64,000 nucleotides of DNA, from NCBI RefSeq assembly GCF_038396675.1, contig NC_088931.1, positions 63,351,501-63,415,500 of the forward strand, written 5' to 3'. Below the pieces are notes generated by a model. The model had not been told where the DNA came from. It worked only from the letters and a program-made list of their open reading frames with translations, and did not search any database. Position numbers and translations under genes: made by a program. Origin of the DNA: Hydra vulgaris (taxonomy: Eukaryota; Cnidaria; Hydrozoa; Anthoathecata; Hydridae). This document shows positions 50,601 to 56,600 of this stretch, piece by piece. Each line of letters starts with the position of its first letter. Positions within the stretch are counted from its first letter, which is position 1.

Positions 50601-53600
50601 ATTTTATGCATTTTCCAAATAACATCCTGATTATTTGTCAAATCTTACTTTTAAATCTCTGATTTTTTTTTAGCCAGTCAACAATAACCAGCAAGAAATC
50701 ATTTTGGAAGGCAAAATAGCATATGTCCATGCAATTTTTTGAGTTTGCTTCATGTAAAACTGTCGCGTTTCTTATTTTGAATGGTCCAAACTTGAATCAA
50801 ATTTTTTTAAAGTTTAATGTTTTTTAATTAACATGTTTACCATAACTATACCAAGACTAAACTTAATAGACTTTCTGATTTTAAATAATATCGTAAACAT
50901 GTAAATGAACATTTTTTAACTAATATTAAATTTTAAAATAACAATTACGCTAAAATTTCAAGTAAAAAAGCGAGAGAACAACAGACATATATAAAGTAAA
51001 TTTTATCAATTTTTAAATGAATAAATAACCTTGCTATGCTTGAATATACTTTTTTTTTAAATAAAACTTGTCAAACTTAAAAAAACAAGTAAACAAATTA
51101 TAAACTTTTAATGAAAGAATATTACATATTTTTTAAATATATTTATTTTTGCATGCTGACACTTTGAGATATTTAGGTCAGCAGTTGTAATGACATCATA
51201 AAGCAAAGATAGGTCTGCTTTTGCATGGCATAGCTGAATGCCAACCTGAATTTTGCAAGCTGTATATATATATATATATATATATATATATATATATATA
51301 TATATATATATATATATATATATATATATACACATATATATATATATATATACATATATATATATATATATATATATATATATATATATATATATATATA
51401 TATATATTATATATATATATATATCGTGTTTAAATTTGAATCTTTGCTTTTCAAAAAACCCCATAAAAAGAAATCTAATGATGTTAGATCTTGATCTTGG
51501 TGGCCAGTAAACAGTTCTTCTTCTAGAAATTATTTGATCTCCAAATTTCTCAATCTTTAAAAGAATGATTATTTCTGTTGCTGTATGACATGTTGCACAG
51601 CTTCATCACTAAAGATCACTCTGTTAAAAAATCATTATTTTCTTCTTTTGCTACAAGAGCCCAATTAACAAATGCACAACGTAATCCATAATCAGTTGGC
51701 AATAATTGTTGTGTTAACTTTATTTTGTAAGCTTTAAGGTGAAAATTCTTATGCGAAATATTGAATAAAGTGGTTTGTTTTATGCCTAATTGCTGCGAAC
51801 GATTATGAATTGATGTGTTTGACTCTTCACTAACACTTTCACTGACAGCAGCAATAATTAATAGGGAACAACCACTACGACTGAAAATTTTATTTTTTTG
51901 ATCTTGAGTTGAACCATTTCCTCAAATTTATTCACAATACTTTAAATGGTAGAGTTAGTTGCACAATTTCTTCTTCCATTTTTTATACGAAATTTTCTTT
52001 TCACTTCAACATAATTTTCACATAACTTAAAATAATTTTTAACAATAAAGACTGATGTTTAATCGTATATTTCTCCATATTTACTAACCACAATATTTTT
52101 ACTTGATAGCTGTCAAAAACAGAAACCAATTTAGTACAAAAAATACAAATGGCGCAAACTTAAAAAAGTAAATTCAAATTTGAATACCCTGTGTGTTTAT
52201 ATATATATATATATATATATATATATATATATATATATATATATTCAAATTTGAATATTCAATTTTGATTCAATTTTCAATTCAAATTTAAATATTCAAT
52301 TTTGATGGCAATTTAAATTTGAATACCCTGTGTGTGTGTGTGTGTGTGTGTGTGTGTGTGTGTGTGTGTGTGTGTGTGTGTGTGTGTGTGTGTGTGTGTG
52401 TGTGTATATATATATGTATATAAATATATAGACGGGTTGGAATTGTTTTGAATTTGTCCGTTGATGTACGCATGCGCAAACTCTTGGCAGTCAAAACAAA
52501 TCGTTGTTGGTTAATTTTTTGCTGGACTTCGTATGAAACTTCTGAAGATGTGGTCAAAATCTTTGTATTTTAGCATGTTAAACGGTAGTGATCAATTAGA
52601 TTACAAGAAGAAATTAACATTAACAAACAAGGAAACGTTACCGGACCAGTATCCAATCGATAAACGATCGAACTGAAGCCAATAAGACTACTGTTACTAG
52701 TAAACTGTATCAATGGAACCAAGTAAAGAGAAAGGCTGAAGCATCATCATTGCAAAATATATCCTTTAATAGACCAAAATCTAATGATTTACCATGTGAA
52801 ATAAGATCAGCTAAAAGTACTGTAAAAACTATTCCATCAATGCAGAAGAGTCCGTAAAAAATTTGGGTCTAGATAAAGTTCAAGAACAACCAAAGGTTAT
52901 GCCTAAAGCAGCGTATTTTAATTACGTATTGTCTTAGAAAAATACTGACGGTATATTGATATCTGATGTGACAGAAGAAAATCTATGTCCAGAACCTTTA
53001 ACAAGTCTGTTTGATTGATTGAAGCAATTAATTTAGATAATTCTGTTTTAATAGAGAGATGTTTTTTAAAATACAAAAAATACAAATTAACTTACACCTC
53101 AAGTTCATTTGATTTTTTTATCTGAAATTACTAAACTGTAGAGTTTATCCAGTACATTGAAAATTCACAGAGCAGGGAGAATTACAGCCTCTAATTTTTA
53201 TGAAGTTATGCATTTCAAATATAACAACTCAAGTAAGTCATTGCTTAATAAGCTAATGTGTTATACGAAAGCACATAACACACCTTCCTTAACTTATGGC
53301 AAAGAAATGGAATGTAACACTATGAAACCATTATGAAAGAAAAACACAAAAACTTCCAATTGACAACTTCAGACCTTCACATTTTATACAATAAACCATA
53401 CTTAGGAGCTTCACCTGACTATAGTAAGCTGTTCTTGCCATACTGTCGTTTTGCTAGAAATAAAGTGTCCATTCAATTATCGAAATGGTTTAGTGAATTG
53501 GGAAACAGATAAAAATGTTGATTCATTTAAAAACATGAAGAAAAATCATAAATATTATGCACAAGTGCAGGGTTAACTATATGTTCTAAATAAAGAATAT

Positions 53601-56600
53601 TATGATTTTTTCGTTTGGGCTTCAAATCATTATTTATTAGTTTGAGTTACAAGAGACTTGAAGTTTATTGATGAAATGATGCCTTTGCTCTGGAAATTAT
53701 TGAGTGTTTACCTCCTGAAGTTGTTACATACAAAAATGATTTATGTTTAGACAATAAACAAAAGTATTACTGTATTTATAAAAGACCCTGTTTTGAACCA
53801 ATGATAGCATGTGATAAACCAGGTTGTAAAGTTGAGTGGTTTCATTATTCTTGTGTGAAAATTACACAAGCTCCAGTTGGTTCCTGGATATGCAACAGTT
53901 GCTTGAAATAAAATTATGTTTAATAGGGTTCTTCTGTCTGCACGATTATTTTATATTTTTAGACCAAAAAAAGTTAATTATAACTTAATTAACTTTTTTT
54001 GGTCAAATTTTTCCATTTCCTTGTATTGTCATCGAAAATGATTAAGTGTCCAAAATTTGAGCAAAATTGGTTGAGAAAAAAGCTTTCAAAAATTGATTTC
54101 AAATTTTGTGGCACACAAACATATATAGAAAGTAACCTTATATAAAGCATGGAAAAATAACAAGATTAGCACAAAAAAGACACATCTCTAATTGTAGACA
54201 CAATCAATATAAAAAAAAATTACTTCGATTTTGTTAACGTTATTTTGACAAGGAAATATTTTACAAAACTTTTTTATGAGAACTAGCATAAAATATCCTA
54301 AGTAACTTTAACTCATATACCAAAATATCCTTAAACCAAGCCTTTAAGGTCTTTCAAAAAAAAAGTTTTAAAACAAAAAACAAAGTTTAATGGAAAAAAA
54401 GGAAAATATTTGAAGCTTCATAAAAGAATTGATAAATAAATGTCTAAATCTTTAAAAAAATCATTTCAAAGGCAAAATTAAATACCAAATCATGTTTTTA
54501 ACAATATGTGGCTATGAAAATAAACGTTTTTTATAAGCCGAAATACATTGCAAAATAATCGTGCAGACAGAAGAACCCTATTAAACATAATTTTATTTCA
54601 AGCAACTGTTGCATATCCAGGAACCAACTGGAGCTTGTGTAATTTTCACACAAGAATAATGAAACCACTCAACTTTACAACCTGGTTTATCACATGCTAT
54701 CATTGGTTCAAAACAGGGTCTTTTATAAATACAGTAATACTTTTGTTTATTGTCTAAACATAAATCATTTTTGTATGTAACAACTTCAGGAGGTAAACAC
54801 TCAATAATTTCCAGAGCAAAGGCATCATTTCATCAATAAACTTCAAGTCTCTTGTAACTCAAACTAATAAATAATGATTTGAAGCCCAAACGAAAAAATC
54901 ATAATATTCTTTATTTAGAACATATAGTTAACCCTGCACTTGTGCATAATATTTATGATTTTTCTTCATGTTTTTAAATGAATCAACATTTTTATCTGTT
55001 TCCCAATTCACTAAACCATTTCGATAATTGAATGGACACTTTATTTCTAGCAAAACGACAGTATGGCAAGAACAGCTTACTATAGTCAGGTGAAGCTCCT
55101 AAGTATGGTTTATTGTATAAAATGTGAAGGTCTGAAGTTGTCAATTGGAAGTTTTTGTGTTTTTCTTTCATAATGGTTTCATAGTGTTACATTCCATTTC
55201 TTTGCCATAAGTTAAGGAAGGTGTGTTATGTGCTTTCGTATAACACATTAGCTTATTAAGCAATGACTTACTTGAGTTGTTATATTTGAAATGCATAACT
55301 TCATAAAAATTAGAGGCTGTAATTCTCCCTGCTCTGTGAATTTTCAATGTACTGGATAAACTCTACAGTTTAGTAATTTCAGATAAAAAAATCAAATGAA
55401 CTTGAGGTGTAAGTTAATTTGTATTTTTTGTATTTTAAAAAACATCTCTCTATTAAAACAGAATTATCTAAATTAATTGCTTCAATCAATCAAACAGACT
55501 TGTTAAAGGTTCTGGACATAGATTTTCTTCTGTCACATCAGATATCAATATACCGTCAGTATTTTTCTAAGACAATACGTAATTAAAATACGCTGCTTTA
55601 GGCATAACCTTTGGTTGTTCTTGAACTTTATCTAGACCCAAATTTTTTACGGACTCTTCTGCATTGATGGAATAGTTTTTACAGTACTTTTAGCTGATCT
55701 TATTTCACATGGTAAATCATTAGATTTTGGTCTATTAAAGGATATATTTTGCAATGATGATGCTTCAGCCTTTCTCTTTACTTGGTTCCATTGATACAGT
55801 TTACTAGTAACAGTAGTCTTATTGGCTTCAGTTCGATCGTTTATCGATTGGATACTGGTCCGGTAACGTTTCCTTGTTTGTTAATGTTAATTTCTTCTTG
55901 TAATCTAATTGATCACTACCGTTTAACATGCTAAAATACAAAGATTTTGACCACATCTTCAGAAGTTTCATACGAAGTCCAGCAAAAAATTAACCAACAA
56001 CGATTTGTTTTGACTGCCAAGAGTTTGCGCATGCGTACATCAACGGACAAATTCAAAACAATTCCAACCCGTCTATATATATATATATGTATATATATAT
56101 ATATATATATATATATATATATATATATATATATATAAATTTCCCAAATTACTTCACATTCCTAAAAAACTATTTCATATCATAAAAACTCTTTTTTTTT
56201 TTCAAGAATGATTGTTATAACTATTTTATAAATAAATGATTATTGTTAAATACTATCTTTATTATATTTTAAACATATGCTCTCAAATTATAAACTCTAT
56301 CTTGGGTGGTGGTGCACTTGATTCATGGAGTCAGTAGAGGGTGGCATATCTTAATTAATTTCAATTGAAAAATGGCTAAAATAAATCATTGTTGTAATCT
56401 CCACCCTATCTAGTTATCAGTGTCTTTCACAGAAAAGGTTTTAATCTCGCACAAGATTCATGACTTGATGCAGAGACAAGAAATAATATCTAGATAAATA
56501 GAGCCAATAAACTGATATGATAACTTCATGAGAGTTGGATAAATTCAAAAAAATAGATCTCAACCACTTACTTTCATAGCATCAAAAATAAAGCAATTTA

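Follow-up and report, generated by a model that had tools for sequence, protein, structure and literature searches.

How does a stretch of 1.5 kb come to lie opposite its own mirror image, identical at every base, inside the intron of a conserved gene? The question is raised by a locus of Hydra vulgaris (NCBI RefSeq assembly GCF_038396675.1, contig NC_088931.1, positions 63,351,501 to 63,415,500), a stretch of 64,000 nucleotides that we call the window and in which coordinates are given unless another locus is named. An initial annotation had reported two inverted arms of equal length, 52431-53952 and 54552-56073, and full pairwise alignment of the first with the reverse complement of the second confirmed these coordinates exactly (1522 of 1522 positions identical, 0 gaps). 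Chance cannot account for such a perfect inverted repeat. That annotation described the structure correctly without recognising a mobile element with relatives; the sequence identifies it as a DNA transposon that is non-autonomous and probably belongs to the cut-and-paste type. We consider it very likely that it is a transposon with two left ends, the outcome of right-end replacement, remobilisation, homogenisation of the arms and, in some copies, deletion at the hairpin tip. Its parts are as follows.

52431-56073, no strand: whole putative palindromic double-left-end transposon, 3643 bp, with GACGGG...CCCGTC ends and TA on both sides as in standard copies, and a 3663-bp twin on C4
52429-52430, no strand: left target-site duplication, TA, which falls within a TA/TG repeat and so cannot be proved from the window copy alone
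52431-52592, plus strand: left terminal inverted repeat (TIR), 162 bp, left-end type by four diagnostic columns
52431-53952, plus strand: left arm, 1522 bp, equal to 1532 bases of the C4 twin minus 10 bp of deletions common to both arms
53953-54152, no strand: filler at the inner junction, 200 bp, with a 49-bp imperfect inverted repeat inside, not in the 15 fetched standard copies
54153-54551, minus strand: inner spacer part of 399 bp next to the right arm, in colinear order with the standard element
54552-56073, minus strand: right arm, identical to the left one in inverted orientation (1522/1522)
55912-56073, minus strand: right TIR, 162 bp, likewise left-end type by the diagnostic columns
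56074-56075, no strand: TA target-site duplication, right, from the flank table of family copies

The outer ends of the palindrome, GACGGG at 52431 and CCCGTC at 56073, are the same as those of related copies; the BLAST match between the arms runs on for 26 bases on each side, with three mismatches, because both flanks are TA repeats. A search of the same genome (911.5 Mb in 15 contigs) with the left arm gave at least 52 scored matches, which we grouped into at least 37 loci, six of them with inverted pairs; since 40 of 118 candidates were scored, these counts are lower bounds. We read 21 of the 37 loci, that is, 20 fetched loci and the window copy (W). Six are palindromic: W, C4a (C4:8113994-8117656), C4b, C10, C15a (L012, 3264-7743, on C15) and C15b. 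The initial annotation had raised the matter of single-arm copies elsewhere in the genome, and the arm was indeed found in 15 copies of standard layout among the loci read (15 of the 20 fetched, a few with the right end truncated). These are mostly 2.4-2.5 kb long and comprise 162-bp TIRs, the arm sequence, about 399 bp that correspond to the reversed window spacer and another internal segment, with distinct left and right ends and a broken YqaJ-nuclease/PHD-finger gene. Two longer copies, L020 with 5892 bp and L025 with 4512 bp, were candidates for autonomous elements; their extra DNA lies at different points, which suggests later insertions.

As expected of a DNA transposon, the copies occupy unrelated sites and have constant termini in inverted orientation. 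TA is present on both sides in 17 of the 19 copies tabulated, the exceptions being C15a and L016 (the table omits L023 and L027, each with one end truncated), which is consistent with a TA target-site duplication as read from occupied sites. The 1.5-kb flanks of the six palindromic loci show no mutual match at E 1e-10; for this reason, and because the ends are transposon termini, we rejected a segmental duplication. With arms of 1532 bp against the normal TIR of 162 bp in the family, and twin copies on two chromosomes, the element has the features of a foldback-like or extended-TIR transposon.

The spacer between the arms is informative about the origin of the structure. Read on the minus strand, the window copy consists of an arm, 399 bp as in the standard element, the 200-bp filler and the inverted arm. 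The initial annotation had taken all 599 bp of the spacer to be single-copy, which is true of one part only: bases 1-200 as a whole were found in the window copy and its C4 twin alone among the loci fetched, whereas bases 201-599, in whole or for the most part, match at least 38 other genomic sites, a lower bound because the scoring covered 40 of the 803 candidates. The first 16 bases of the filler are also present in C10 and C4b, and two of the 38 spacer matches extend about 40 bases into the filler part; in L018, the readable one, the sequences are barely alike and the match looks like a chance extension.

We used the TIRs to ask which ends the palindromic copies carry. In 11 of the 15 standard copies (L016, L018, L023 and L027 were not used), left and right TIRs are separated by four fixed columns. 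Both ends of W, C4a, C10, C15b and C15a show the left state at all four; in C4b three columns show it, and its right side has a gap in place of the fourth. The presence of the left state at both ends indicates that the right end was replaced and not merely lengthened. Furthermore, C4a (3663 bp) has the structure, spacer and joins of the window copy, with the spacer 99.5% identical and the filler identical at 200/200 positions. C10 and C4b have a common deletion join with the first 16 bp of the filler beside an arm, as would be expected from a tip deletion in a window-type palindrome. In C15b, arm base 979 adjoins the opposite arm with an overlap of two bases; a further tip deletion would fit this join, although no filler remains as proof. 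These three copies look like tip-deleted descendants. C15a is a separate tail-to-tail inverted dimer of 4480 bp with a different join, its arms differing by one substitution in 1531 and one indel. A tree built from 26 arm rows places the 11 arms of palindromic copies on one side of a branch (88/85); L023 was also left out of the structure comparison, and the right arm of C4b out of the tree and of one arm comparison.

The availability of two full-length copies of common structure allowed us to follow the arms after dispersal. Over 1522 positions, 13 substitutions separate the arms of W from those of C4a, with 10 gap columns besides, whereas within either copy there are no differences at all. 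Had the arms diverged since the two copies split, about 13 differences would be expected per copy (Poisson probability of none, about 2e-6 per copy). When polarised by the other rows, 10 of the 13 substitutions are in our reading derived in W and 3 in C4a; seven of those derived in W occur in no other row, and all are in both arms. Counting private changes present in both arms against differences between the arms, we obtained 7 against 0 for W, 2 against 0 for C4a and 18 against 1 for C15a. For C4b the count is 2 against 14 in 1155 columns of the MAFFT alignment and depends on that alignment: BLAST aligns its arms in three stretches, 1144 positions in all, with 4 mismatches and 11 gap positions, and the two results differ because the right arm has internal deletions. 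The tree likewise pairs arms by locus in the five copies with both arms included (C15a 100/100, C15b 100/99, C10 99/96, the arms of W and of C4a being identical), C4b being represented by its left arm. Judged from these sequences, identity of arms alongside differences between copies is concerted evolution, with homogenisation that is complete in W and C4a, the full-length pair, and partial where the tip has been deleted. Among the possibilities named in the initial annotation, gene conversion is the best reading of the arm identity.

The short TIRs behave differently. In the 11 standard copies, the 162-bp TIRs differ by a mean of 7.35% within copies and 7.55% between the left and right ends of different copies, against 5.3% for left-left and 4.8% for right-right comparisons. 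Thus, the short TIRs of standard copies are not homogenised and the result holds for the long arms only. Since long arms are homogenised and the short ends of their relatives are not, the effect of arm length on conversion can be tested within one family. The pair of W and C4a is also a clean natural case of concerted evolution in a small palindrome, with copies of common origin 13 substitutions apart and no arm differences in either.

The following order of events would account for these observations. A break in the right half of an ancestral standard element would have been repaired from an inverted left-end template, the repair probably being seeded in the 162-bp TIR, and the right end would have become an inverted copy of the left 1532 bp, with the 200-bp filler at the join. 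The resulting double-left-end element remained mobile, as shown by same-join copies on different chromosomes with unrelated flanks. Gene conversion, in the hairpin or at transposition, may then have homogenised the arms of each copy, so that new changes ended up in both arms; the pattern is seen in the sequences, and the mechanism is our proposal. Deletions at the hairpin tip would have given rise to asymmetric descendants that are beginning to diverge. The window copy would have inserted in a TA repeat within intron 1 of the PP2C gene described below.

Several observations weigh against this account. The support for all palindromic arms as one group (88/85) is moderate, and C15a has no TA on its right side. 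C10 has 9 arm differences in 1335 positions against 4 private changes in both arms, suggesting that homogenisation is incomplete or slow there, and C15b has 3 in 979 against 4. These data do not discriminate between gene conversion and a process that copies a single arm whenever the element transposes. Finally, we found no transposase or autonomous partner, a negative result with no genome-wide search of element ends behind it.

The element contains remnants of coding sequence, each present once per arm.

53406-53576, plus strand: YqaJ-like nuclease remnant, mirrored at 54928-55098 on the minus strand (PF09588, E 0.0013, 19.4 bits, under the cut-off)
53675-53908, plus strand: PHD zinc finger remnant, mirrored at 54596-54829 on the minus strand (PF00628, E 0.00013, 22.4 bits against a cut-off of 24)

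Five pieces from three related copies were also scanned with Pfam: in L028:2430-2693 the YqaJ domain reaches 30.9 bits, above the cut-off of 22, one piece scores 20.1 with the viral alkaline exonuclease model, a narrow pass at a cut-off of 20, and the PHD finger reaches 23.4 at best against 24. The YqaJ frames are broken in all 20 elements surveyed (14 standard and 6 palindromic, L023 being left out), and no sense frame longer than 119 amino acids, hence no intact gene of its own, was found in the first 1600 bp of any of them. As the frames are broken throughout, autonomy had probably been lost by the time the element spread. No RNA family was detected in the window at the gathering score.

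The gene into which the element inserted lies on the minus strand.

56732-56842, minus strand: PP2C coding exon 1, matching 2i0o residues 2-38 (E 1e-4) and ending in GAG followed by GTAACA
42167-56731, minus strand: intron 1, 14,565 bp, containing the palindrome, with donor GTAACA and acceptor TTAG before GATGCA
42089-42166, minus strand: exon 2, matching 2i0o residues 39-62, weak alone (E 0.38; PF00481 E 0.041, under the cut-off)
13769-14005, minus strand: later exon with a GDSR motif, matching PF00481 (110 bits) and 2i0o residues 127-204 (E 6.9e-37), borders approximate

Exon 1 alone gave no Pfam match, and exons 1 and 2 are directly continuous on 2i0o with proper splice signals between them, in agreement with the earlier placement of the palindrome in intron 1. 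We call the host PP2C because the title of 2i0o says only Ser/Thr phosphatase; the nearest family is presumably PPM1G. An acceptor-like TTTCAG stands immediately before the start codon, which would allow for a spliced leader or an untranslated exon further upstream. Within this gene the palindrome is most likely a passenger in the intron, and its only likely effect would be a perfect double-stranded stem of 1.5 kb in the pre-mRNA, if the intron is transcribed. Hairpin RNA and small interfering RNA (siRNA) from such a stem are plausible.

This leads to the first of three alternatives to the origin proposed above, namely that the locus was selected as a hairpin whose long double-stranded RNA and siRNAs silence its own family, as proposed for Mu killer in maize. 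The palindrome lies within an intron of a conserved gene and its anatomy recalls Mu killer, in which the gene-adjacent TIR is present twice and an element gene is duplicated in inverted orientation (PMC3440606). According to a review of small RNAs in cnidarians, siRNAs occur in Hydra, and in Nematostella inverted duplication has produced siRNA precursors (PMC9923473). On the other hand, the target of silencing would be unclear with YqaJ frames broken in 20 of 20 elements, the same structure occurs elsewhere, so that the window site need not be special, and the read-through model for Mu killer itself is disputed (PMC3440606). We regard selection of the locus as unlikely. The same low probability applies to the broader idea of a mobile self-correcting hairpin, in which conversion would keep the arms identical and copies in transcribed introns would give long, perfect double-stranded RNA against their own family.

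Less probable still is that each palindrome formed independently and very recently, with no homogenisation. C15a does demonstrate that inverted dimers of this family can form by a different join. But W and C4a have both joins and an identical 200-bp filler in common, C10 and C4b share a third join, and the 13 substitutions between W and C4a would predict a similar number of arm differences, with the none observed having the Poisson probability given above. Least probable, and in our view barely credible, is an artefact in which a fold-back read or a polishing step created a false mirror copy: although the arms are perfectly identical over 1522 bp and short-read polishing could remove a few arm differences (the Hydra vulgaris AEP haplotype assembly, 912 Mb in 15 gapless chromosomes, combines HiFi and Nanopore reads and was short-read polished; PMC12220107), the palindrome ends at transposon termini, C4 has the same palindrome and spacer with 13 substitutions, a different target site and different flanks, and C10, C15b and C4b retain the arm differences listed above, so that the assembly did not merge arms by rule and the assembly error considered in the initial annotation is not supported.

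Other repeats lie in the window. Inverted repeats at 19232-19680 and 22884-23332 (94.9% over 450 aligned positions) enclose several long frames (19934-22768), and 19232-23332 is likely another DNA transposon; two of its frames gave no Pfam match at E 0.01. A P-element-like remnant with a TNP-like GTP-binding insertion domain (51.7 bits) is found at 45239-45553, and a tandem array with an apparent period of 22 bp, seen from shifted self-matches, at 36601-36955. Two oppositely oriented elements, which we take to be hAT, occupy 58791-63214 (DUF4371, 41 bits, minus strand; zf-C17orf113, under the cut-off, plus strand). Right beside the palindrome, a minus-strand frame at 51616-51921 has no Pfam match and presumably resembles a decayed mariner-type transposase.

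In the literature available to us in part on YqaJ with a PHD finger and transposase, YqaJ in Hydra transposons and ISL2EU with YqaJ, we found no published description of this family. The ISL2EU group of the PHIS superfamily is similar in its YqaJ-type nuclease gene, animal hosts, TIRs of 6-259 bp and 2-bp duplication in AT-rich sites (PMC4482050), and the Hydra family has a degenerate YqaJ gene, of which the L028 piece passes the Pfam cut-off. In contrast, the Hydra ends read GACGGG and not GG, a start that is usual, not constant, in ISL2EU (PMC4482050); the ISL2EU target is A/AT/T, whereas the Hydra copies fit an AT register in 14 of 19 cases against 17 of 19 for TA; and the DDE transposase of ISL2EU, with THAP and helix-turn-helix domains, was not seen in the Hydra family, again with no genome-wide search of the ends. 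Lacking the AT target and the GG start, the family was not assigned to ISL2EU. Tetris, a foldback element of Drosophila virilis, also has inverted arms and hints of homogenisation within the element, but its arms contain 220-bp repeat units (PMC4079207), and no such tandem array is present in the window arms among the BLAST self-matches listed.

Mu killer, a MuDR derivative, is internally deleted; one of its TIRs is present twice, and about 1.3 kb of an element gene is duplicated in inverted orientation next to host genes (PMC3440606). The window copy likewise has the same TIR at both ends and an element gene in inverted duplicate. The two differ in that Mu killer is known for silencing its own family, although how its RNA arises is disputed (PMC3440606), whereas any silencing by the Hydra element would be a prediction; the latter also exists as several mobile copies, and its arms stay identical. 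As a candidate source of hairpin siRNA in a cnidarian, the locus is well defined and comparable with this plant example, and a self-correcting hairpin, if true, would give animals a counterpart of Mu killer able to spread as a transposon.

Another close structural parallel is Galileo, an element of the P superfamily in Drosophila with 7-8 bp target duplications and TIRs of 765 and 757 bp in a nearly complete copy (PMC4168063). As in the window element, internal coding sequence was recruited into both TIRs; the extended TIRs of Galileo are up to 99.9% identical within a copy, and two separate insertions have a similar extended structure (PMC4168063); repair copying from the opposite TIR has been proposed (PMC3573991). 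Galileo belongs to another superfamily, with 7-8 bp duplications in place of TA, and its nearly complete copy already has long TIRs, whereas the normal Hydra TIR measures 162 bp and long arms occur only in the palindromic copies among those read. TIR extension by recruitment of internal sequence is therefore already known from Galileo, and by this comparison the Hydra element appears to be of the same kind; its contribution is the polarised, copy-by-copy evidence of arms staying identical after dispersal.

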